Shown here piece after piece: positions 48,925 through 62,094 of a stretch of 64,000 nt of DNA. The DNA comes from Aureimonas altamirensis (GTDB lineage Bacteria; Pseudomonadota; Alphaproteobacteria; Rhizobiales; Rhizobiaceae), in contig NZ_BBWQ01000010.1 of assembly GCF_001463885.1 (NCBI RefSeq), positions 248,001-312,000 of the forward strand, in the 5' to 3' direction. The position numbers were made by a program, and so were the translations under genes. Position 1 is the first letter of the stretch. Each line of letters starts with the position of its first letter. The notes below the pieces were generated by a model that was not told the origin of the DNA, did not search any database, and saw nothing but the letters and a program-made list of their open reading frames with translations.

Positions 48925-49159
48925 GGTTGAGGACATCCGGCCATGGCGGAAACGCGTGCACCTTTTTCGAGGACAGAGAGCCTTCTTAACCACCGGGCCC
49001 ACGGCTTTGAACCCCGTGGCACGCTTGATCCACAGACAATCTGTCCAATCTCCGGTTTGGATTTTTCGCCCTATCGTCTTTCTCGATCATCCATCGCGTC
49101 TAGATGGATTTTAGAAAAGCGATGCCGGCGCGCACCGGATGTCGGTTGGGGGATACGGC

Positions 49160-50584
49160 ATGTTCGATACGTTCGACCCTGTTTTGCTGGCGCGGTTCCA
49201 GTTTGCCTTCACCGTTGCGTTCCACATCATCTTCCCCTCCTTCACCATCGGGCTGGCATCCTACCTGGCGGTGCTGAACGGGCTTTGGCTGGGCACGGGC
49301 AAGCAGGTGTACCTGACGATCTTCCAGTACTGGCTGAAGATCTTCGCCGTCTCCTTCGCCATGGGCGTCGTCTCCGGCATCGTCCTGTCGTACCAGTTCG
49401 GCACCAACTGGTCCGTCTTCTCCGACAGGACCGGGCCCATCCTGGGGCCGATGATGGCCTACGAAGTGCTGTCCGCATTCTTTCTGGAGGCCGGCTTCCT
49501 GGGGGTGATGCTGTTCGGCCTCAACCGCGTCGGCAAGGGCCTGCACTTCTTTGCCACGCTGATGGTGGCCATCGGCACGCTCGGATCGGCCTTCTGGATC
49601 CTGTCGGTCAATTCCTGGATGCAGACGCCGGCCGGATTCGCCATCGCCGAAAACGGCCAGTTCGTACCGGTGGACTGGTGGGCCATCGTCTTCAACCCAT
49701 CCTTCCCCTACCGCCTCGCCCATATGGTGCTGGCCGCCTATCTGACCACGGCGCTGGTCGTCGGCGCCGTCGGCGCCTTCCACCTTCTGCGCGACAGGGG
49801 CAACGCAGCGGCGCGCACCATGTTTTCCATGGCGCTCTGGATGGCGACCATCGTTGCGCCGATCCAGATCTTCGCCGGGGATCAGCACGGCTTGAACACG
49901 CTGGAGCATCAGCCCGCCAAGGTTGCCGCGATGGAGGGCCATTTCACCACCAACCGGGACGGCGGCATGCCCCTCACCCTCTTTGGACTTCCCGACATGG
50001 AAGCCGGCGAGACGCGCTATGCGGTGGAGATTCCCAATCTCGGCTCGGTCATCCTGACGCATTCGCTTGACGGCGAAGTGCAAGGCCTCGACGCCTTCCC
50101 GAGGGAAGACTGGCCCTATGTGCCCATCGTCTTCTTCTCGTTCCGCATCATGGTGGCCATCGGCTTCGCCATACTGGGCCTTGGGCTGTGGGCGCTCTAC
50201 AGGCGCTTCAGGGGCTCCATCACCACCGATACATGGCTGCAGCGGGCAAGCGTCGTGATGGGGCCGATGGGCTTCGTCGCCGTATTGGCCGGCTGGATCA
50301 CGACGGAGGTCGGCCGCCAGCCCTATACGGTCTACGGGCTGCTGCGGACGGCGGAAAGCCATTCGCCCATCGCCGCCGCAGCCGTCGGCGCCAGCCTCAT
50401 CGCCTTCATCGTCGTCTACTTCATCGTGTTCGGCACGGGCACGTTCTACATCCTGCGGTCGATGGCCAAGGCACCGTCCGTCTTCGAAGAGGGGCCCGAC
50501 CCCAGGGAGCCGATCCGCACGGCCGGCATCACGCCCGGCCAGCAGATGCAGGAAAGCGGCGGCACGACCGCGCCATCGCGTTGA
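49160..50584 (+). CDS. cydA: Cytochrome bd-type ubiquinol oxidase subunit I (CIO type)
   Basis: 474 residues with about nine helices. The haem b595 ligand region is RFQFAFTVAFHIIFPSFTIG, with later haem contexts YRLAHMVLAAYL and NSWMQTP. The Q-loop is short and the GRQPY segment is present (GRQPW in many), marking the cyanide-insensitive CioA subgroup. It oxidises ubiquinol and reduces oxygen in the inner membrane. The ATG at 49160 has GGGGGA six bases upstream. The subunit II gene follows 12 bases on. Confidence 0.95.
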   Translation: MFDTFDPVLLARFQFAFTVAFHIIFPSFTIGLASYLAVLNGLWLGTGKQVYLTIFQYWLKIFAVSFAMGVVSGIVLSYQFGTNWSVFSDRTGPILGPMMAYEVLSAFFLEAGFLGVMLFGLNRVGKGLHFFATLMVAIGTLGSAFWILSVNSWMQTPAGFAIAENGQFVPVDWWAIVFNPSFPYRLAHMVLAAYLTTALVVGAVGAFHLLRDRGNAAARTMFSMALWMATIVAPIQIFAGDQHGLNTLEHQPAKVAAMEGHFTTNRDGGMPLTLFGLPDMEAGETRYAVEIPNLGSVILTHSLDGEVQGLDAFPREDWPYVPIVFFSFRIMVAIGFAILGLGLWALYRRFRGSITTDTWLQRASVVMGPMGFVAVLAGWITTEVGRQPYTVYGLLRTAESHSPIAAAAVGASLIAFIVVYFIVFGTGTFYILRSMAKAPSVFEEGPDPREPIRTAGITPGQQMQESGGTTAPSR

Positions 50585-50596
50585 GGAGACAGAGCC

Positions 50597-51610
50597 ATGG
50601 ACCTTCCCCTCATCTGGGCCTTCATCATCGCCTTCGCCGTGCTGGCCTATGTCGTGCTCGACGGGTTCGACCTCGGCATCGGCATCCTGTTCCCGTTTCT
50701 GAAACGGCATGAGAACCGCGATACGGCGATCAACACCGTCGCGCCCTTCTGGGATGGCAACGAGACGTGGCTGGTCATGGGCGGCGGCGGCCTGTTCGCG
50801 GTCTTCCCGCTGGCCTACGCCATCGTCATGCCGGCGCTCTATGCGCCGATCATCGTCATGCTGCTGGCGCTGATCTTCCGTGGGGTCTCCTTCGAGTTTC
50901 GCTTCAAGACGGTGCGGTGGCGCGGCGTCTGGGACATGGCCTTCTTTCTGGGCTCCCTCATCGCCGCCTTCTCGCAGGGCGTTGCGCTGGGCACCATCGT
51001 GCAAGGCATCGAAATCGAAAACCGCGCCTATGCCGGCGGCTGGTACGACTGGCTGACACCCTTTTCCATCATGACGGGCGTGGCCGTCGTGGTCGGCTAT
51101 GCGCTTCTCGGCTCGACATGGCTGGTCATGAAGACGGAAGGCCCGCTGAACCGCCTTGCAGCCCGCTATGCCGAGTTGACGGGCATCGGCACCCTGGCGC
51201 TGATCGGCGCGGTCAGCCTTTGGATGCCGTTTCTGCAGCAGGCTTTCTATTCGCGCTGGTTCAGTTTTCCGCAGCTCCTGTTCGTCGCGCCAATCCCCGT
51301 CCTGCTGCTGGTCTGCGCGCTAAACCTGTTCAAAAGCCTGCGCGACCCGATCTCCGCCTACCGCCCATTCCTGTCGGCGCTCGGCCTCTTCGTCCTGTCC
51401 TATATCGGCATCGGCATCAGCTTCTATCCCAACATGCTGCCGCCCGAACTGACGATCTGGCAGGCCGCCGCCCCGGACGAAAGCCTGGCCTTCGTGCTGG
51501 TCGGCGCGGCGGTGCTGGTGCCGATGATCCTGGCCTATACCGCATATTCCTACTGGACCTTCAGGGGCAAGGTGCGGGAAGGCGAAGGCTATCATCAGCA
51601 TGGGCACTGA
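50597..51610 (+). CDS. cydB: Cytochrome bd-type ubiquinol oxidase subunit II (CIO type)
   Basis: 337 residues with about eight helices and the subunit II opening LIWAFIIAFAVLAYVVLDGFDLGIGIL, then APFWDGNETWLVMGGGGLFAVFPLAYA. It pairs with subunit I in the oxidase. A ribosome site (GAGGAGA) precedes the ATG. It is followed after six bases by a 34-residue gene. Confidence 0.96.
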   Translation: MDLPLIWAFIIAFAVLAYVVLDGFDLGIGILFPFLKRHENRDTAINTVAPFWDGNETWLVMGGGGLFAVFPLAYAIVMPALYAPIIVMLLALIFRGVSFEFRFKTVRWRGVWDMAFFLGSLIAAFSQGVALGTIVQGIEIENRAYAGGWYDWLTPFSIMTGVAVVVGYALLGSTWLVMKTEGPLNRLAARYAELTGIGTLALIGAVSLWMPFLQQAFYSRWFSFPQLLFVAPIPVLLLVCALNLFKSLRDPISAYRPFLSALGLFVLSYIGIGISFYPNMLPPELTIWQAAAPDESLAFVLVGAAVLVPMILAYTAYSYWTFRGKVREGEGYHQHGH

Positions 51611-51764: not shown

Positions 51765-53237
51765 TCAGGCGGCGATGGAGGGTACCGTGTCGCGCACCAG
51801 CGCCATATCGGCGTGGAAGGCCCGTTGCTCGGCTTCCTGGGCAGCCCGGTCGGGCAGCCGCAGGATGTAGGCGGGGTGCACCGTCACCAGAAGCCGCGTA
51901 TCGGCATCCAGGTCGATCAGCCGCGAGCGCGTATCGCGGATGGTCACAGCCTTCCCCAGCACCGCCGTTGCCGCCGTCGCGCCCAGCGCCACGATCAGTT
52001 TCGGACGGATCAGCTCGCGCTCGATATCCAGCCACCACCGGCACATCTTCACTTCGCCCGCATTTGGCTTCTGGTGGATGCGCCGCTTGCCGCGCGGCGT
52101 AAACTTGAAATGCTTGACCGCATTGGTGACGTAGACCTGCGACCGGTCCAGCCCCGCTTCCGCCAGCGCCCTGTCGAACACCTTGCCGGCCGGGCCGACG
52201 AAGGGCTCGCCGGCAAGATCCTCCTGGTCGCCGGGTTGCTCGCCGACGAAAAGGACGGGCGCGTCGGCCGGCCCGCTGCCGAACACGGTCTGCGTCGCAG
52301 GCTCCCACAGCGGGCAGGCGCGGCACCGCGATGCCTGCTCGCGTGCTTCCTCGATATCCTCCGGACGCCGGTTGAAGCCTGCGAAGGCTTCTTCCACAGG
52401 CTGCGCGGCTTTCGTCATGGCTGCCTTCTCCGCATGGCGCTCATGGCGCAGACCCGGCATCGTGGGTGCGGTTTCCAGCATGCGGCGCGCCGCCTCTTCC
52501 GCGCCCTGCACCAGCGGGCGTATCAACTGTGCCTCGGGCAGATTATGCCAGTACTTGCGCGGCATCTCCGATTGCATCGCCTTCACCTTCAACCGGGCCG
52601 GATTGAAGATCGAGACATAATAGGTCAGCCACAATGCCTCGACGGCATCCTCGTCCGGCTTGTCGCTGGCCAGCGCCGGCGGGCCGAACTGCAGTTCAGT
52701 TCCATTCCAGTGGGCAGAGCGAAGCGGCGTCAGAAGCGTCCACTCCATGCCGGTAAAGCGCCGCGTAAAAAACGGCGCGGTCAGTTCCACCGTGTGATGG
52801 AACGGCTCGAACCAGGCTATGTAATGCGCCGCGCCATTGTCGCCCGGCACCTCGCGGAAGCGCACGAAGGCCTTCATCTTGTGGCTGTCCCGCAGAACCG
52901 ATTTCTGCATGTCCTGCGCACGCCGCACTTCCGGGTCGGACGCAACCTCCAGCAGGCGGCGATCCGTCTGCAACCGCCAGAGCAGGCTATACAGCAGCAG
53001 AAACCGTTGCGGATCGCGGTTGCAGGCGGCGTTTCGGGCAAGGTCGATGAAACCGCGCGGCACCTTGGGCGGCGGCGCGCCACCCGGCTTCTGCGGCAGC
53101 GGCTCGCCGAACAGGGCGCCCTCGCCCTCCACCACGAAGCTCATCGCCTCCGGCGTCAGCTCATGCGACAGCGCAATCCGGGCCGCTTCGCGCCAGCCAT
53201 CGAAATCGGCCGGATGGGACAGGGTGGCGGCGAACAT
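51765..53237 (-). CDS. udgX: DUF4130 - UdgX-type uracil-DNA glycosylase fusion
   Basis: 490 residues. Residues about 1-250 are the DUF4130 domain regularly coupled to a partner radical-SAM protein. Residues about 300-490 are a family 4-like uracil-DNA glycosylase: Fe-S cluster Cys in CRACPL, VGEQPGDQED, TNAVKHFKF and VHPAYILR. The insert KRRIHQKP, with His388, is the hallmark of UdgX, which forms a covalent link to the DNA after uracil excision. The ATG begins one base after the radical-SAM stop, so the two are co-translated. It probably acts in SOS-linked handling of deaminated bases. Confidence 0.92.
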   Translation of the reverse strand: MFAATLSHPADFDGWREAARIALSHELTPEAMSFVVEGEGALFGEPLPQKPGGAPPPKVPRGFIDLARNAACNRDPQRFLLLYSLLWRLQTDRRLLEVASDPEVRRAQDMQKSVLRDSHKMKAFVRFREVPGDNGAAHYIAWFEPFHHTVELTAPFFTRRFTGMEWTLLTPLRSAHWNGTELQFGPPALASDKPDEDAVEALWLTYYVSIFNPARLKVKAMQSEMPRKYWHNLPEAQLIRPLVQGAEEAARRMLETAPTMPGLRHERHAEKAAMTKAAQPVEEAFAGFNRRPEDIEEAREQASRCRACPLWEPATQTVFGSGPADAPVLFVGEQPGDQEDLAGEPFVGPAGKVFDRALAEAGLDRSQVYVTNAVKHFKFTPRGKRRIHQKPNAGEVKMCRWWLDIERELIRPKLIVALGATAATAVLGKAVTIRDTRSRLIDLDADTRLLVTVHPAYILRLPDRAAQEAEQRAFHADMALVRDTVPSIAA

Positions 53238-53238
53238 C

Positions 53239-54474
53239 TCAGAACAGGCTCAATTGCTGCGCCGGCGGCACCAGCGCATCGCGTAGATGCGCGCTGTCCG
53301 TCAGTCCGCCGGGTGTCCAGTCGAGCGCGGATATGAAGGGGCGCACCTTCGAAACGGATTGGCAAAGCCGGCCGATATCGTCCAGCCGCAGGGTACGATG
53401 GCGGCGCGTGGACAGGATGCGATTGACGGACTTCGTGCCAAAGCCTGGAACCCGCAACAGCATCTCCCGGTCGGCCCGGTTGACGTCGACGGGGAAACGC
53501 TCCCTGTTCTTCAGTGCCCAGGCCAGCTTCGGGTCGATGGCAAGATCCAGCATGCCATCCGTTCCGCCGGCGACGATTTCCGACCGTTCGAAGCCATAGA
53601 AGCGCAACAGCCAGTCTGCCTGGTATAGCCTATGCTCGCGCATCAAAGGCGGGCGGGCCAGCGGCAGCCGGCTGGACGCATCCGGAATGGGCGAAAACGC
53701 CGAGTAATACACGCGCTTCAACCGGAACGAGCCGTAGAGATTTTCCGACCGCGCCAATATGGCGTCGTCGTCCGCCCCGTCGGCGCCGACGATCATCTGC
53801 GTCGACTGCCCCGCCGGTGCAAAGCGCCGCGGCTTCGCCTTCGCTTTCTTTTCCGGCTCACCCTCTTCGATCTTCAATCGCAGATGGCCCATGGACCGGC
53901 GGATATCGCGCGGGTTCTTTTCAGGAGCGAACTGCGACAGGGCGATATCGGTCGGCAACTCGATGTTGACGGACAGGCGATCGGCATAAAGCCCCGCCTC
54001 TTCCATCAGTTGCGGTGACGCTTCCGGAATGGCTTTCAGGTGGATATAGCCTGCGAAATTATGGTCGAGCCGCAGGGACTTCGCCACGCGCACCATCTCT
54101 TCCATCGTATAATCGGAATTGCGGATGATGCCGGACGACAGGAACAGGCCTTCGATGTAATTGCGACGATAGAAGTTGAGCGTCAGATCGACGACCTCTT
54201 CCACGGAAAACCGCGCCCGGGCCACATTCGACGAATGGCGGTTTACGCAGTAGACGCAATCGTAGATGCAGAAATTCGTCAGCAGGATCTTCAGCAACGA
54301 AATGCATCGTCCATCCGGCGCATAGGCGTGGCAGATGCCGGACCCCTCGGTAGAGCCGATGCCTCCGCTTTTCAGCGAATTGCGTTTGACCGTCCCGCTC
54401 GACGCGCAGGAAGCATCGTATTTCGCGGCGTCGCTCAAAATTGCGAGTTTGTCGAGAAGTGTCGTTCGGGCCAT
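53239..54474 (-). CDS. Putative DNA modification/repair radical SAM protein (TIGR03916 type)
   Basis: 411 residues. The radical-SAM cluster CIYDCVYC (Cys69, Cys73, Cys76) is followed by a family-specific core (EGLFLSSGIIRNSDYTMEEM, AGYIHLKAIPEAS). A helix-hairpin-helix segment near 340-365 (MLLRVPGFGTKSVNRIL) suggests DNA binding. The protein ends QQLSLF, a match to the beta-clamp-binding consensus QL[SD]LF. It opens MARTTLLDKLAILSDAAKYD, a normal family start. No ribosome site precedes the ATG, in keeping with a near-leaderless mRNA. The reaction is unknown; it regularly pairs with the DUF4130/UdgX gene. Confidence 0.9.
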   Translation of the reverse strand: MARTTLLDKLAILSDAAKYDASCASSGTVKRNSLKSGGIGSTEGSGICHAYAPDGRCISLLKILLTNFCIYDCVYCVNRHSSNVARARFSVEEVVDLTLNFYRRNYIEGLFLSSGIIRNSDYTMEEMVRVAKSLRLDHNFAGYIHLKAIPEASPQLMEEAGLYADRLSVNIELPTDIALSQFAPEKNPRDIRRSMGHLRLKIEEGEPEKKAKAKPRRFAPAGQSTQMIVGADGADDDAILARSENLYGSFRLKRVYYSAFSPIPDASSRLPLARPPLMREHRLYQADWLLRFYGFERSEIVAGGTDGMLDLAIDPKLAWALKNRERFPVDVNRADREMLLRVPGFGTKSVNRILSTRRHRTLRLDDIGRLCQSVSKVRPFISALDWTPGGLTDSAHLRDALVPPAQQLSLF

Positions 54475-54482
54475 GGACAGAG

Positions 54483-54512
54483 CATATACCGTTCGCTCTT
54501 TGTTCTATCCAG
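54483..54512 (-). promoter_or_regulatory. LexA-type SOS promoter of the radical-SAM/udgX operon
   Basis: GTTC-N7-GTTC occurs exactly at 54491-54505, the LexA box described for Rhizobiales and other alphaproteobacteria. On the minus strand it fills the 17-base spacer between a weak -35 (TGGATA) and a -10 (TATATG, 54483-54488). Transcription would then start close to 54476, next to the ATG at 54474. This gives direct LexA repression of a near-leaderless operon. Confidence 0.75.
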
Positions 54513-54730: not shown

Positions 54731-56731
54731 ATGAAGGGGGAATGTCTCCAGCATTCCAAACGGCGGAAAGTGATTGCGAACGTGCCTTTGCGTAGAACGG
54801 GCATCGTCCTGACCTTGATGGCTTCGACCATGTGTTCCGCCCTTCTGGCCGGAACGCCATCGGCGCACGCCTTCGAGCTGTTCGGATTCAAGTTCTTCGA
54901 AGGCGAGGATGATTCCGATCCGATCCTCGATCCGGTCAACTACTCTGTCACACTAACGCTGACACAGCCTGTCGACGGGCTTGAAGATGCGTTGGAAGCC
55001 GCCTCCACGCTGATCTCCGACGAAGACGAGCCGGTGTCCGGCTCGCTCGGCCTGCTGGCCAAGGCGCGCAACGACCGCAAGCGGCTGGTTGCCGCCTTGT
55101 ACGAAAATTCCCGCTATGACGGCATCGTCACCATCCGCATCGAGGGGCAGGATATCGCCACCCTGCCGCCGGACACGGCCTTCAATACGGCAGGCACGGT
55201 GCCCGTAACCATCACCGTGGAACCGGGGCAGCTTTACAAGGTCGGCCGCGTGGCGATCACCACGGACGGCCCTCCCGTGGTGGACCCGGCGGAGTACGAG
55301 CTGACCCGTGGCTCTGCGGCGGATTCGACACGGATCCTTTCGACGCAGAACCGCATCTACCGCGATATCGAGGATACGGGACGCCCCTTCGCGGCCGTCA
55401 CCCACCGCGACGTCATCGCCGATTCGGCGCGCGGCGAACTGGACTACGAACTGTCGCTCTCTCCCGGGCAGCGCGTGCCCTTCGGCGTAACGAGCGTCAA
55501 GGGAACGGAGGCCGTACGCCCCGGTTTCGTCGCCTACATGGCCGGCATTCGCCCCGGCACGGTCTACTCGCGCCAGGAGCTGGCCGACGCGCGCGAGCGC
55601 CTGTCCAAACTGAACGTCTTTTCCAGCGTCAATGTGCGGCCCGACAACGGCCAGGTGGCCGATGGGACGCTGCCCGTGATGATCGAGGTGGCGGAACGCC
55701 CCTTCCGCCTGTTCGGTGCGGGCGCCACCTTCTCCAATACCGACGGCGCCGGCGTGAACGCCTACTGGCAGCACCGCAACCTGTTCGGCGGGGCCGAGAG
55801 CCTGCGCATCGAAGGCGCGGTGACGCGCATCGGCGCAAACGAGATTTCCGATACCGGCCGCGAGACCGACGGGTTCGACTATCGCGGGTCCGCCGTCTTC
55901 CGCAAGCCGGGCGTGCTCGGCCCGGATTCGGTCTATATCGGCTCGCTGACCGCGCTGCGCGAGCAGCCGCTTGCCTATGACCGCGCGTCGGTGGCGGGCT
56001 ACAGCGGCGTCGAATATCGCATCGACAAGCAACAATCCGTCACGGCCGGCATCCTCATCGAATATGAGGAGATCGAGGACTATCTCGGCAAGGAAGACTT
56101 CCTGATCGGGTCGGTGCCGCTCAGCTATACCTACGACGCGCGCGACAACGAGTTGAACCCCACCGGCGGCTACCTGCTGAAGGCGACGGCGGAACCCTCC
56201 TACGATGCGTTGAACTCCGTGCCCTTCTTCAAGGCCCGTGGCGATGCCTCGGCCTACCTGTCCTTCGACGAGGGCGGCAGGTTCGTGGCGGCCGGGCGGG
56301 TGGCATACGGCACCATCCTCGGCGCCGACCTCGAGGACGTGCCGAACGACCGGCGGTTCTATGCCGGCGGCGGCGGCTCGGTCCGCGGCTATGTCTACCA
56401 GTCGATCGGGCCATACTTCCCGAGCTTCGCCCTGCCCGGCACCAACCCCAATTTCGTCGATACGCCGACCGGCGGTCTGTCGCTGTTCGAGGCCTCGCTG
56501 GAGCTGCGTATCGGCATCACGGAAACCATACAGATCGTACCCTTTGTGGACGGCGGAACGGTTTCCGACGATCTTTTCCCCGATTTCGGCGAGTTCAAGA
56601 TCGGCGCTGGCGTCGGCGCCCGCTACCTCACAAGCTTTGGCCCGATCCGCGTCGATGTCGGCATTCCGCTCGATCCCGGTCCGCGCGACGGCGATTTCCA
56701 GATTTACGCAGGCATAGGGCAGTCGTTCTGA
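54731..56731 (+). CDS. tamA: Translocation and assembly module outer-membrane protein TamA (BamA/Omp85 family)
   Basis: 666 residues: a signal peptide (about 20-45, ending PSAHAFE), POTRA domains (about 70-320; the last contains RERLSKLNVFSSVNVRPDNG) and a 16-strand Omp85 barrel (about 325-666) with the FYAGGGGSVRGY lid-loop motif and a C-terminal strand ending in Phe (IYAGIGQSF). GGGGGAG precedes the ATG at 54731. With TamB it helps insert certain outer-membrane proteins and may carry lipids. tamB starts at the last base of the stop codon. Confidence 0.94.
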   Translation: MKGECLQHSKRRKVIANVPLRRTGIVLTLMASTMCSALLAGTPSAHAFELFGFKFFEGEDDSDPILDPVNYSVTLTLTQPVDGLEDALEAASTLISDEDEPVSGSLGLLAKARNDRKRLVAALYENSRYDGIVTIRIEGQDIATLPPDTAFNTAGTVPVTITVEPGQLYKVGRVAITTDGPPVVDPAEYELTRGSAADSTRILSTQNRIYRDIEDTGRPFAAVTHRDVIADSARGELDYELSLSPGQRVPFGVTSVKGTEAVRPGFVAYMAGIRPGTVYSRQELADARERLSKLNVFSSVNVRPDNGQVADGTLPVMIEVAERPFRLFGAGATFSNTDGAGVNAYWQHRNLFGGAESLRIEGAVTRIGANEISDTGRETDGFDYRGSAVFRKPGVLGPDSVYIGSLTALREQPLAYDRASVAGYSGVEYRIDKQQSVTAGILIEYEEIEDYLGKEDFLIGSVPLSYTYDARDNELNPTGGYLLKATAEPSYDALNSVPFFKARGDASAYLSFDEGGRFVAAGRVAYGTILGADLEDVPNDRRFYAGGGGSVRGYVYQSIGPYFPSFALPGTNPNFVDTPTGGLSLFEASLELRIGITETIQIVPFVDGGTVSDDLFPDFGEFKIGAGVGARYLTSFGPIRVDVGIPLDPGPRDGDFQIYAGIGQSF

Positions 56732-59700
56732 TGCTGCAGCTCCGCACCGTCCGCACCCGCATCGCCGCCCTCGCCGCCCTTGGCGGCGCCTTCCTGCTGC
56801 CGGCCCCGGCGGCCCATGCGCAAGGGTTCATTGCCAATCAGATCGAAAACCTGATCTCGACCGAGAACGCGCAGGTAGAGATCGAGGGTCTGTCGGGCGC
56901 GCTGTCCGGCAATATCCGCATCGAAAGCCTGACCGTATCGGACCCGGACGGCGTCTATCTGACGGCGCGCGATCTGGCGCTCGACTGGTCGCCGACGGCC
57001 TTGATCCGTCGCACGGTGGAAATCCAGCGGCTGACGGCCGGCTCCATCGACTTTACGCGGCTGCCCCAGGGCAAGGCCGCAAGCGCCGAGGACGACACCG
57101 GCGGTGGCGGCTTCTCTCTGCCCAACATCACGGCCAATGTCGGCGAAATCTCCATCGGGCGCTTTACGCTGGGCGAGGCCGTGGCCGGCGTCGCGGCGGA
57201 GCTGTCGGCCAATGGCGGGCTGACGCTGACGCGCGATCCCGCCGCGCTGGACGTGCGCTTTGCGGTGGAGCGGCTGGACCGGCCGGGCACCGTCAAGGCC
57301 ACATTGGGCTTTGCCCCCGACCAGAACCGCCTTGTCCTCAATGTCGACGCGAACGAGCCGGAGGGCGGCATCATCGCCGGCCTCCTGAAGCTGCCCGGCG
57401 CGCCGCCTGTCACCGTCAACGTCACGGGCAACGGTCCGCTCAGCGATTTCACGGCCAATGGCGCGCTCGACATCGCGTCCGAGCGCGCCATCACCATCGA
57501 GGCCGCCGTGCAGGATGGCGCCGACGGCCGCCGCCTGACCGCCAATATCTCCACCATCACCGGCCCCTTCGTGCCGGCGCAATACGCCGATATGGTCGGC
57601 GAAACGGCCACGGTCGCCGCGGATATCCTGCTGCGCAACGAAGGCGGCATCGTCACCATCAACCGTGGCCAGCTCGTATCGGGTGCATTGCAGCTCGATG
57701 CGTCCGGCACCTACGACCCGAACGGCTCCACCAACGATCTGCGCGTCATGCTGGCGACGGAGGAAGGCAACCCCGTGCCGCTGTCCTTCGGCCAGCTCGG
57801 CGCCCGCAGTTTCCTGGAAGTGTCCTCGCTGGACGCCACCCTGTCCGGCGCTTTGGAATCGGCCGCACTGACCGTTGAAGCGGCCGCGCGCACCGCCGGC
57901 TACGAGGATTACCTTGCACGCGACGTCACCCTGCGCGCGACGAGCCCGGGCTTCAACCTGAATGCGATTTCGGGCCCGTTCCAGCTTGCGCTGGACGCCG
58001 CCAGCGCCAGCGCGCCCGAGGGCATCGCGGCAAACGTCCTGACCGGTCCCATCGCCCTGGCTGTCGAAGGACAGCTCACCGAGGGCGAGATCGTCATAGA
58101 CTCCAACAGCCTGACCACGGGCGCGGCCAGCGCTGCCGTTACCGGAAGGGCGGCGCGCGATTTTTCCACCTTCGACTTCGCCCTGCGCTCCGACGTGGAG
58201 AGCGCCGCTTTGGCGCAGCAACTGACGCAATATGCCGGCGAGCGCATCGCCCTCAGCGGTTCGGTTGCGCGCACGGCCGAGGGCTATGAGGGACGCGATC
58301 TGTCCATCGAAGGCACGGGACTGTCGGTCGAGGCATCCGGCAGCCTGTCCGGCGAAACCATTTCGGCCAATGCGTCGGGCACGCTCGACCAGGCACAGAT
58401 ACCGGACGCCGGCCTGACCGGCACCGCCGACTTCACCCTTGATGCCGCCGGCACGCTCGGTGCACCGCAGGTCGACCTGACGGTGAACGGCGCGAACCTC
58501 GATATTGCGGGGCGCACGCTGCAGGAAGTCACCGCGCGCATAAACGGCACCTTCGCACCGGAGGCACCCAACGGCACGGTCGCGGTCAACGGGCGGTTCA
58601 ACGATCAGCCGCTGGAAGTAACCGCCGACTTCGATACCGCAGGGGACGTCCGGAACCTGCGCAACCTTGCCATCGTGCAGGGCGACAACCGCGTGACCGG
58701 GGCGGTGGCGCTGGGCGCCGACAACGTGCCGACCGGCAATCTCGACATTGCGGCGCCCGACCTGTCGACGCTGGCGGGCCTTGTCGGCCTCGAGGCCAGC
58801 GGCGACGTCGAGGGCACGGTTGCCCTGACCGTTCCGGATGGCGCGCCGCAGGCCGTCGTCGACATCCGGTCCGGCTCGATCTCCTTCGGCGAAACCGAGC
58901 TGGCCAACGCCACGGTGGACGTCACCCTGTTCGATTACATCAACAGGCCGCAGGCCGAAGGAACGGTCGAGGCCGCCTCGCTTGCCCTGCCCTCCTTGAC
59001 GGTCGCAGCCCTCGATATCGACCTGTCGCGCCTCAACGATGCGACGGTGATCGATGGCAGCACCACCATCAACAACGTCGCCACCGCATTGAACGGCAGC
59101 GTTTCCTCGATACAGGGCGAGACCGCGATCGATCTGCGCCGCCTGACCGCCGACATCGACGGCGCCGCCGTGGCGCTGCGCGAACCGACCCGCGTCACCA
59201 TCGGGCAGAATGGCGTCAACCTCGGCCGCATCCTTCTGGCCGTCGGCCAGGGCGGACTAGAGCTGACCGGCGCGATCTCGGACGAGGTGCAGCTCGACCT
59301 GTCGCTCAATGCCTTCCCCCTTGCCGTCGCCAACCCGTTCGTCGCCGGTCTCGATGCCGCGGGCACACTGTCGGGCGATGTCTCCACTGCCGGGCCGGCC
59401 GACAACATCCGGGCCGATTTCGATGTGGCGCTGGCCGGGCTGCAAAGCGCCCAGACACGGCAGGCCGACCTGCCGGCCGTGGACGGCGCCCTGACCGGGC
59501 GTTACCGCGGCGGCATCGCAAGCCTTGATACGGCGCGTCTGAATCTCGGCGGGGGCACGGTGAACGTGACGGGCGATGTCGGCCAGACACTAGATGCCGT
59601 CCTGACCCTCACCGACATTCCGGTATCCATCGCCAATGGCTTCGTGGCCAATCTCGGCGCATCCGGCACGCTCAGCGGCCGGGCCGAGGCAACGGGCGAA

Positions 59701-62094
59701 CTCGACAACCCCATTATCGTCTTCGACCTCGACGGGCGCGACATCTCGGCCGAACGGGTGGCTGCCGCCGGCACAGGGTCCATGACGATCGACCTTTCGG
59801 GCCGGCTGGCCAACTACACCGTCCGGCTGTCACAGGCCGTCGCCAACATCGGGTCCGGCTCCGTCCGCGCCACCGGCAGCGTCGGGCGGGATCTCGACCT
59901 GGATCTCGACATCGAAAGACTGCCCGTTGCGCTGGCCAATGCCTTCGTGCCGGGGCTGAATGCCACGGGCGACGTGTCGGGCACGGCGCGGGCCACCGGC
60001 ACCCTGGCGCGTCCGCAGGCCACGTTCCAGCTTGCGGGCGGCAATCTTGCGGCCGCGCCCCTGCGCCAATCGGGCGTGGATACGGTGGCGCTCGACATCG
60101 CCGGAGCCTACCGCGACGACACGCTGACGCTCGAGCGCGGCGACATCCGCGCCGGTGGCGGCACCTTGAACGTCTCCGGAACGGTCGGCGACACACTGGA
60201 TCTGCAACTGGCCATGCAGCAGCTTCCGCTGGCGCTGGCCAATGCGGCCTCCCCCACCCTCGGGGCGCAGGGGACGCTGTCCGGAACGGCGCGCGCCACG
60301 GGCTCGCTGTCGGCGCCGGCCGCCACCTTCGATATCAATGGCACCAACATCTCGGTTGCGGCCTCGCGCGCCGCAGGTGCGCCTTCGGCAAGCCTTGCCG
60401 CGGCAGGCGATTTCCGCGACGAAACGGTCGCCCTGCGCACCGCGCGCATCGACCTGTCCGGCGGCGGCAGCATCGTAGCCACCGGCAGCGCCGGACGGCG
60501 GCTCAACCTCGACGTGACCTTGTCCGACGTTCCGGCCTCCATCGCGGCGGCGGCCGCGCCGGATGTGGCGCCGCAGGGCACGATCGGCGGCAACATCCAG
60601 GCGCGCGGCACCATCGCCAATCCGGATGTCACCTACGACATGCGCGTCGGCGGCCTTTCCCTGGCACAGACGCGAGAGGCGGGTGTCGGTCCGCTGGATG
60701 TCGCCGCTCGCGGCACCTATGCACAGAACCGGGTGACCCTGGATGGCAGCCTCTCGGGATCGGGCATCGCCTTCAACGCCGATGGGTCGGTCAACCTGGC
60801 GGGCACGCCGGCCTTCGACCTGGCGCTGAACGGCAACGCGCCGCTGTCGCTGGCCAACCGTATCCTGGCCGAGGGCGGCCGCTCCATCCAGGGCGATGTC
60901 AGCGTCAATGCGCGCGTGTCCGGCACGGCGGCCAACCCCAATGTCACGGGAACCGTGTCCACCAGCGGCGCCCGCTTCGTCGATACCGGAATCAACCTCG
61001 CGGTCGAGAACATCAACACGACGATCGCCCTGTCCGGCGACCGCGCGACGATCAACGCCTTCTCGGCCAATCTCGGCAGTGGCGGCTCGATCAACGTCGC
61101 AGGTGGCGTCGGCCTCGGCGCCGGCTTCCCCGCCGACATCAGCGTCACCATCCGCGATGGTCGCTATGCCGACGGCGAACTGTTTTCCACCCGGCTCAAC
61201 GCAGACCTGACGCTGACGGGCCCGATCACCGGCGCCGCTGTCCTTGGCGGCACGGTGAACGCGCAGGAAATCGCCATCGTCGTACCCGACAAGCTGCCCA
61301 GTTCGCTTGCCGATCTGGACGTGCGGCACGTCAATGCGCCGGCGGCCGTGTACCGCCAGCAGCGCGAGATCAATCCGGACTCCGGCGCCAGCGGCGCCAG
61401 CGGCGGCGGCATCACCCTGGATCTGACGTTGAATGCACCAAACCGCGTCTTCGTGCGCGGCCGTGGCCTGGACCTTGAGCTGGGCGGCACCATCCGCATC
61501 ACCGGGCCGGCGTCCAATGTCGGCATCGTCGGCGGCTTCGACCTGCAGCGCGGCCGGTTGCAGATCCTCAGCCGGCGGCTGGATTTCGAACGCGCCTCCC
61601 TGTCCTTCACCGGCAATCTCGTCCCGACGCTGGATTTCCTGGCACAGTCGGACACGGGCGAGGCCACCGTCTACGTCGCGGTTACCGGCCCGGCCGAAAA
61701 CCCGGCCTTCACCTTCAGCTCCAGCCCGGCGCTGCCGCAGGACGAGGTGCTGGCCCGGCTGATCTTCGGACAGGCCACCAGCGACCTGTCGCCCCTGCAG
61801 ATCGCGCAGCTCGCTTCGGCGGCCGCATCGCTGGCCGGCGTCGGCGGCTCTACTGGGCTTCTGGACAGTCTTCGCTCGCAGCTCGGTGTCGACGACATCG
61901 ACATCCGCACCACGGCCGACGGACAGGCGGCGGTGGGTGTCGGCCAGTATCTGAACGAGAACACCTATATCGGCGTCGACACCACCGGGCGGGTCTCCAT
62001 CGATCTGGAGCTCGGGCGCGACATCAAGGCGCGCGCGGCCGTCACGGCCGGAGGCGGCGGCGAAGTCGGCGTATTCTACGAGAAGGAATACTGA
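56731..62094 (+). CDS. tamB: Translocation and assembly module inner-membrane protein TamB
   Basis: 1787 residues, longer than E. coli TamB (1259). An N-terminal signal-anchor (about 8-28) is followed by a very long repetitive beta-taco region rich in D/N/G/T, with recurring units of the type LDLxLxxLPLALANAFVPGLxAxGTxSGxARATG. The conserved C-terminal DUF490 domain begins near 1430 and closes with GREVGVFYEKEY-like GEVGVFYEKEY. It spans the periplasm as a hydrophobic groove and partners with TamA. The start overlaps the tamA stop (TGATG). The extra length lies in the internal repeats. Confidence 0.94.
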   Translation: MLQLRTVRTRIAALAALGGAFLLPAPAAHAQGFIANQIENLISTENAQVEIEGLSGALSGNIRIESLTVSDPDGVYLTARDLALDWSPTALIRRTVEIQRLTAGSIDFTRLPQGKAASAEDDTGGGGFSLPNITANVGEISIGRFTLGEAVAGVAAELSANGGLTLTRDPAALDVRFAVERLDRPGTVKATLGFAPDQNRLVLNVDANEPEGGIIAGLLKLPGAPPVTVNVTGNGPLSDFTANGALDIASERAITIEAAVQDGADGRRLTANISTITGPFVPAQYADMVGETATVAADILLRNEGGIVTINRGQLVSGALQLDASGTYDPNGSTNDLRVMLATEEGNPVPLSFGQLGARSFLEVSSLDATLSGALESAALTVEAAARTAGYEDYLARDVTLRATSPGFNLNAISGPFQLALDAASASAPEGIAANVLTGPIALAVEGQLTEGEIVIDSNSLTTGAASAAVTGRAARDFSTFDFALRSDVESAALAQQLTQYAGERIALSGSVARTAEGYEGRDLSIEGTGLSVEASGSLSGETISANASGTLDQAQIPDAGLTGTADFTLDAAGTLGAPQVDLTVNGANLDIAGRTLQEVTARINGTFAPEAPNGTVAVNGRFNDQPLEVTADFDTAGDVRNLRNLAIVQGDNRVTGAVALGADNVPTGNLDIAAPDLSTLAGLVGLEASGDVEGTVALTVPDGAPQAVVDIRSGSISFGETELANATVDVTLFDYINRPQAEGTVEAASLALPSLTVAALDIDLSRLNDATVIDGSTTINNVATALNGSVSSIQGETAIDLRRLTADIDGAAVALREPTRVTIGQNGVNLGRILLAVGQGGLELTGAISDEVQLDLSLNAFPLAVANPFVAGLDAAGTLSGDVSTAGPADNIRADFDVALAGLQSAQTRQADLPAVDGALTGRYRGGIASLDTARLNLGGGTVNVTGDVGQTLDAVLTLTDIPVSIANGFVANLGASGTLSGRAEATGELDNPIIVFDLDGRDISAERVAAAGTGSMTIDLSGRLANYTVRLSQAVANIGSGSVRATGSVGRDLDLDLDIERLPVALANAFVPGLNATGDVSGTARATGTLARPQATFQLAGGNLAAAPLRQSGVDTVALDIAGAYRDDTLTLERGDIRAGGGTLNVSGTVGDTLDLQLAMQQLPLALANAASPTLGAQGTLSGTARATGSLSAPAATFDINGTNISVAASRAAGAPSASLAAAGDFRDETVALRTARIDLSGGGSIVATGSAGRRLNLDVTLSDVPASIAAAAAPDVAPQGTIGGNIQARGTIANPDVTYDMRVGGLSLAQTREAGVGPLDVAARGTYAQNRVTLDGSLSGSGIAFNADGSVNLAGTPAFDLALNGNAPLSLANRILAEGGRSIQGDVSVNARVSGTAANPNVTGTVSTSGARFVDTGINLAVENINTTIALSGDRATINAFSANLGSGGSINVAGGVGLGAGFPADISVTIRDGRYADGELFSTRLNADLTLTGPITGAAVLGGTVNAQEIAIVVPDKLPSSLADLDVRHVNAPAAVYRQQREINPDSGASGASGGGITLDLTLNAPNRVFVRGRGLDLELGGTIRITGPASNVGIVGGFDLQRGRLQILSRRLDFERASLSFTGNLVPTLDFLAQSDTGEATVYVAVTGPAENPAFTFSSSPALPQDEVLARLIFGQATSDLSPLQIAQLASAAASLAGVGGSTGLLDSLRSQLGVDDIDIRTTADGQAAVGVGQYLNENTYIGVDTTGRVSIDLELGRDIKARAAVTAGGGGEVGVFYEKEY

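Follow-up and report, generated by a model that had tools for sequence, protein, structure and literature searches.

Two-gene operons that combine a COG1573 gene with a COG4277 gene, and include a uracil-DNA glycosylase (UDG), have been described as SOS regulated in Bacteroidetes, and the same source refers for such a system to Erill 2016 on Verrucomicrobia and to Paes da Rocha 2008 on Caulobacter (PMC8565304). It describes a UDG-based base excision system, and its main text contains none of the words clamp, cysteine, DUF4130, UdgX, and iron-sulfur. Passages in two other papers report a radical S-adenosylmethionine (radical-SAM) protein in LexA regulons, with the family not named there (PMC7739468), and four COG1573 genes in Caulobacter, with no SOS link stated there (PMC1839093). 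Covalent cross-linking by UdgX, for which H109 is the cross-linking residue, is also on record (PMC10359453). Among the open-licence articles of PubMed Central (PMC), no paper linking UdgX with radical SAM or LexA was found. The present analysis concerns a 64,000-nucleotide stretch of the Aureimonas altamirensis genome (contig NZ_BBWQ01000010.1, positions 248,001 to 312,000; hereafter the window), which carries an operon of two genes, one for a radical-SAM protein and one for a fusion of a DUF4130 domain with UdgX. The family of the radical-SAM protein, TIGR03916, is what we take to be COG4277, and the operon resembles the described one in being a two-gene unit of a UDG-type gene and COG4277 under LexA. 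SOS control of such an operon is already known; the additions made here are a clamp-like tail, a second set of cysteines, and the optional nature of UdgX. Our reading, to which we give a probability of roughly 60%, is that the operon encodes a LexA-controlled, clamp-tethered, and probably two-cluster radical-SAM enzyme that would act together with DUF4130 on DNA damage at replication forks; UdgX would be an optional accessory. The regulatory part of this reading is well supported by sequence comparison; clamp binding, the second cluster, and the chemistry on DNA are what we infer from conserved features of the proteins.

An earlier note on this DNA had claimed a two-gene operon with an exact GTTC-N7-GTTC box in its core promoter. 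The operon is as claimed, with the TIGR03916 gene first and a gap of 1 base between its stop and the start of the DUF4130-UdgX gene, and the exact box is present as well (Table 1). Counted in the window alone, the box is uninformative: two occurrences were found versus 1.34 expected, and 38 of 100 shuffles reached two. Genome-wide, GTTC-N7-GTTC occurs 115 times versus 65 times for the reversed pattern, and the narrower GTTCN5WTGTTC, which the operon box fits, occurs 15 times versus 2. Eight of these 15 sites, the operon included, precede repair or replication genes, the other seven being dinB, dnaE, ssb, and the genes for a topoisomerase A-subunit, an SRAP protein, a SplB-like radical-SAM protein, and a zincin. 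Among the rest, three sites are intragenic, two lie by genes with no repair link, and two have no gene according to a simple gene caller. The neighbors of some sites of this type are what we take to be UvrA, ImuA, and ImuB. Upstream of lexA itself are two overlapping GTTC-N7-GTTC boxes (L041:1488-1513). The sites were further ranked with a LexA matrix made from nine boxes of eight other SOS-type loci of the same genome, the operon box being excluded, and this scoring covered 102 of the 115 sites. The operon box scored 19.07 and ranked 8th of the 102, and six of the seven sites above it are members of the matrix. As judged by sequence, then, the operon box matches the genome's own LexA regulon. 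The core-promoter position is only putative: it is supported by the 16-bp distance from the ATG and by a TATAT-like stretch that follows the box in many relatives when judged by eye, and a sigma-70 consensus scan found nothing.

The box was also compared across several sets of loci. First, among 61 related genomes (the genome's own included), all 28 carriers of TIGR03916 have the exact box ahead of the radical-SAM start. Second, the exact box was found at 34 of 35 loci in a wider-flank set composed of 18 loci shared with the relatives and 17 from a class sample, i.e., 289 alphaproteobacterial genomes searched with profiles and their cut-offs. Third, it lies within 150 bp at 75 of 80 named loci, which were kept from at least 592 relatives, come nearly all from Alphaproteobacteria, and include two loci identical to ones in the wider-flank set. 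A scan of homologous operons had been set as a check beforehand, and the 28/28 and 75/80 results exclude an absence of the box from relatives. The boxes are also concentrated upstream of the gene, with 78 in 12,000 bp there versus 15 in 549,814 bp elsewhere; for the reversed pattern, the corresponding numbers are 1 versus 10. Finally, the motif switches with the lineage. The profile search gave 29 places over the cut-off in Pseudomonadota outside Alphaproteobacteria, of which 20 were combined with one named Betaproteobacterium into a set of 21 other-class loci. The region upstream of the gene contains CTGT-N8-ACAG, which we take to be the E. coli-type LexA box, in 17 of the 21 loci and the alpha-type box in none. 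The same CTGT-N8-ACAG pattern is present in 0 of the 80 named loci and occurs only twice in the 151,148 bp lying elsewhere within the 21 loci. Since the gene is marked by each lineage's own LexA motif, these sequences are strong evidence for selected SOS control of the radical-SAM gene within Pseudomonadota. Together, the conserved box and the regulon match strongly support the LexA control and the link to a damage response that had been proposed for the operon.

Comparison of the loci further suggests that radical SAM and DUF4130 are the core of the operon. In the class sample, TIGR03916 was detected in 18 genomes and DUF4130 in 18, and the 17 genomes with both have them less than 1 kb apart. 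Of the two odd genomes, G105 is a draft assembly with a fragment, and G242 has DUF4130 with a radical-SAM remnant beside it. A Caulobacter genome used as a control had matches to the two families. At the 35 wider-flank loci, DUF4130 was nearby in 32 and a UDG domain in 24, and at the 80 named loci the numbers were 79 (the exception is at a contig end) and 73. By these counts DUF4130 is a near-obligate genetic partner. UdgX is optional by comparison: 8 of the 17 class-sample loci, the one with the radical-SAM remnant among them, have a DUF4130 gene without a UDG domain, 7 of these 8 retain the box, and 6 of the 8 genomes have no UdgX over the cut-off at any place. We also collected distant loci (L312 to L317), namely those of Spirosoma, Bacteroides, Acetoanaerobium, Gemmatirosa (L315), an Acinetobacter record, and a contig of no assigned origin, with the phyla Bacteroidota, Bacillota, and Gemmatimonadota represented; the Spirosoma, Bacteroides, and Acetoanaerobium copies again have DUF4130 without UDG. 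UdgX as the core of the system was rejected, since loci without it retain both the box and the radical-SAM/DUF4130 pair. The same counts bear on a uracil-centered explanation, in which UdgX would be the key enzyme of a base excision pathway that clears the uracil or misincorporated nucleotides which SOS polymerases leave behind, and the radical-SAM protein would be a helper. A UDG-based repair role of this kind has been proposed for the described operon (PMC8565304), but with so many box-bearing loci, and the three distant ones, devoid of UDG, we regard it as quite unlikely here. It is also conceivable that UdgX traps abasic sites covalently and that the radical-SAM protein and DUF4130 then resolve these adducts or similar crosslinks. 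The genes are adjacent behind a single box and UdgX cross-linking has been reported, which would fit; however, the pair is conserved without UdgX, and RecA-dependent or protease routes for adduct resolution have been proposed (PMC10359453), so that this explanation seems very improbable.

A further comparison comes from the genus itself. Of 21 same-genus genomes (own included), 15 have DUF4130 adjoining the radical-SAM gene. In five others (L175 to L179), the DUF4130-UdgX fusion is relocated and the radical-SAM gene retains the box, and in the draft G002 no DUF4130 was found. Because the box stays with the radical-SAM gene after the fusion relocates, LexA control follows the radical-SAM gene. 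The five genomes are not one clade on the radical-SAM tree, of which only the topology was considered, and the stretch before the relocated gene is similar among genomes when compared by eye. With UdgX often absent where the box is kept, or relocated without an exact box, the joint action centered on uracil adducts of UdgX that had been suggested at first is disfavored.

The C-terminus of the radical-SAM protein points to where the enzyme may act. It is variable up to a sharply conserved final peptide (QLSLF, QLELF, QMSLF, QLALF, etc.), in which we recognize what we take to be the bacterial beta-clamp-binding consensus. A strict pattern, Q[LM]xLA?[FLI] in the final 12 residues, is matched at 75 of the 80 named loci, and the remaining five tails read QASLF, QPRLL, QFELF, QLDMF, and QIELPF. 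Of 1200 distinct other open reading frame (ORF) ends from the same 80 loci, non-gene ORFs included, none matches it. Among more distant loci, a Q-x-x-[LIF] peptide is present close to the C-terminus in 27 of 27, inside the final 11 residues in 24, and these peptides include QMALW, QASLF, QLSIF, QLSFF, QLLLDF, QLSLGF, and QLSLW. Q407 is invariant in all 36 sequences of a radical-SAM alignment that excludes the Gemmatirosa copy. In the predicted model, the last residues are unstructured, with a predicted local distance difference test score (pLDDT) under 50. In the genome's own DNA polymerase IV (Pol IV), QLDLL lies five residues before the C-terminus. Such a peptide suggests that the radical-SAM enzyme, with its helix-hairpin-helix (HhH) module, is most likely loaded on the beta clamp at replication forks or gaps, as Pol IV of this genome also appears to be. 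In open-licence PMC articles, no paper on a clamp tail or clamp-binding motif of radical-SAM proteins was found.

The remainder of the protein is that of a radical-SAM enzyme with some additions. Its TIGR03916 match (572.2 bits, residues 7 to 404) is well over the NCBI cut-off of 343.5, and its Pfam Radical_SAM score of 29 bits is narrowly under the cut-off of 29.5. The match for the described HhH domain, at 18.7 bits, is under the Pfam cut-off of 27; the HhH core LLRVPGxG is conserved in the aligned radical-SAM proteins. The cysteines of the CxxxCxxC motif, C69, C73, and C76, are invariant in the alignment. C23, C48, and C57 are as well, and these three could possibly form a second iron-sulfur (Fe-S) site beside the radical-SAM cluster. 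The nearest folds of the radical-SAM model are lipoyl synthase, HydE, biotin synthase, and others, at 10 to 18% identity; the HhH region and the tail of the window protein lie outside the matched range. We presume that the cysteine spacing of these three enzymes also differs from that of the window protein. Spore photoproduct lyase was not among the 50 fold matches listed, all of which were to other radical-SAM folds. Lipoyl synthase, HydE, and biotin synthase do not act on DNA, which would favor the radical-SAM protein modifying a non-DNA target during SOS, for instance a replisome protein, a nucleotide, or RNA, and a clamp tail is equally consistent with a replisome substrate. Against such a target speak the HhH region, a partner DUF4130 domain that is fused to a DNA glycosylase, and the company of LexA-regulon genes, and we consider it unlikely.

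On our reading of a clamp-tethered enzyme acting on damaged DNA, LexA would repress the operon through the conserved box and DNA damage would release this repression. The three extra invariant cysteines may hold a second Fe-S site alongside the radical-SAM cluster, and the radical-SAM protein together with DUF4130 would use radical chemistry to repair a damaged nucleotide in DNA or to convert it. UdgX would be an optional addition, used during the same emergency to capture uracil or abasic sites. The focus thus moves from UdgX to the radical-SAM/DUF4130 core, and the mechanism is directly testable.

Several observations weigh against this reading, however. First, the box is not universal. Five of the 80 named loci have no exact box; L200, L222, and L252 are one mismatch off, and L247 and a Xanthomonas locus (L227) lack even a one-mismatch box. 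Four of the 21 other-class loci are also without an exact box, and a scan of L312 to L317 with eight LexA patterns found only one short GGA-N5-TCC. Second, the partnership is looser in places. The relocated DUF4130-UdgX gene of the five genomes has no exact box within 400 bp, the best matrix scores there being 4.3 to 10.2, so co-induction would not be strictly needed. A search with the window DUF4130 as the sole query detected none next to the Gemmatirosa copy or the unassigned-contig copy. Third, Q-x-x-[LIF] is a loose pattern that is not uncommon and gives weak evidence alone, and conservation of a short motif can have another reason. In L314, L315, and L317 the peptide lies about 16 to 25 residues before the end; for instance, the Gemmatirosa copy has QLSLW 21 residues before it, although the presence of this peptide slightly favors the reading. 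Finally, residues 23 to 58 have a pLDDT under 50, and the model neither supports nor excludes a cluster there.

The reading of a LexA-controlled enzyme tethered to the clamp may extend to a second family. The same genome has a gene (L054:1559-2713; C10:33209-34360) for a radical-SAM protein (COG1533) that we presumptively label SplB-like, its Pfam match being Radical_SAM. Like the window protein, it combines radical SAM, a LexA box, here 44 bp upstream, and a clamp-like C-terminus, here ending in QLSLL. It differs in being a separate gene and in having no HhH match at E 0.001, whereas the window protein scores 572 bits in TIGR03916. Among 30 SplB-like proteins of the class sample, 25 have the box and 20 match the strict tail pattern. 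A broader proposal is possible but tentative, and we would place it somewhat below an even chance: the SOS response of many bacteria may deploy radical-SAM enzymes, those of TIGR03916 and, convergently, the SplB-like ones, which, hooked to the clamp through a C-terminal QLSLF, would repair or convert bases where forks have stalled. TIGR03916 would be the version with a second cluster (C23, C48, and C57) and a dedicated DUF4130 partner, and the whole would make a direct-repair branch that operates on the clamp alongside translesion polymerases. Should the tail bind DnaN, the damage response coupled to replication would include radical-SAM chemistry, and this would probably extend to the SplB-like enzymes.

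Table 1. Features of the operon in the window (positions are those of the window)
Feature	Position	Strand	Basis
LexA-type box GTTCGCTCTTTGTTC, GAAC-N7-GAAC read toward the operon	54491..54505	.	Exact pattern match, 16 bp upstream of ATG
Radical-SAM/HhH protein, 411 aa, TIGR03916 (rSAM_link_UDG)	53239..54474	-	Profile search
N-terminal segment with extra invariant C23, C48, and C57, possible auxiliary Fe-S site	54304..54408	-	Invariant in 36/36 aligned sequences
Radical-SAM cluster motif C69-x3-C73-x2-C76	54247..54270	-	Alignment
HhH region, residues 313-358, putative DNA binding	53401..53538	-	Sub-threshold Pfam HHH_5 and HHH_3 matches
QLSLF, residues 407-411, sliding-clamp-binding-like peptide on flexible tail	53242..53256	-	Alignment, ORF-end control, low pLDDT
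DUF4130-UdgX fusion, 490 aa	51765..53237	-	Profile search
TIGR03915/DUF4130 domain, residues 8-236	52530..53216	-	Profile match; invariant residues in alignment
UdgX domain, residues 238-481	51795..52526	-	TIGR03914 match; closest solved relative M. smegmatis UdgX
UdgX R-loop KRRIH, residues 384-388	52074..52088	-	H388 aligns with cross-linking H109

The fusion protein matched TIGR03915 (206.8 bits) and then TIGR03914 (337 bits), both over their NCBI cut-offs of 112.25 and 189.95 bits, respectively. A fold search with the full-length DUF4130-UdgX model gave matches that, as listed, were to the UDG domain. Motif A of UdgX, GEQPG, is present at residues 332 to 336. Motif B reads HPAY at 454, a position with Ser in at least 90% of 45 aligned sequences. 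Compared to M. smegmatis UdgX, the window UdgX thus differs in motif B (HPAY versus HPS) and in being fused to DUF4130 behind a radical-SAM gene. The nearest named homologues are Aureimonas proteins, at 97% identity. Neither operon protein was matched in PADLOC or PHROGs at E 0.001, and an Rfam search gave no match.

Viral sequences were also searched. Of 30 pattern matches on viral contigs, two have a gene for a relative. In a phage collection, 10 of 50,697 records have a match, and of the two that were inspected, one is unannotated and the other, titled Acinetobacter phage (L316; CAKLQH020000003.1), looks like bacterial chromosome, with glyS and glyQ near the gene pair. Among the viral contigs and the two phage records inspected, there is no clear sign of a phage system.

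Some further box-like sequences and neighbors may be recorded. The alphaproteobacterial locus L247, which is without the alpha box, has GAACAAACGTTC close to the start, a sequence that in our view resembles the Gram-positive LexA pattern. In 14 same-genus relatives (L066, L068, L069, L071, L073 to L075, L078 to L082, L084, and L087), a second GAAC-N7-GAAC lies 92 to 107 bp upstream of the radical-SAM start; it is absent from the window. The operon is flanked in the window by one gene pair on each side, at 49139-51610 and at 54731-62094, which, labeled by eye, we take to be a cytochrome bd-type pair and a TamA/TamB-like pair, respectively.

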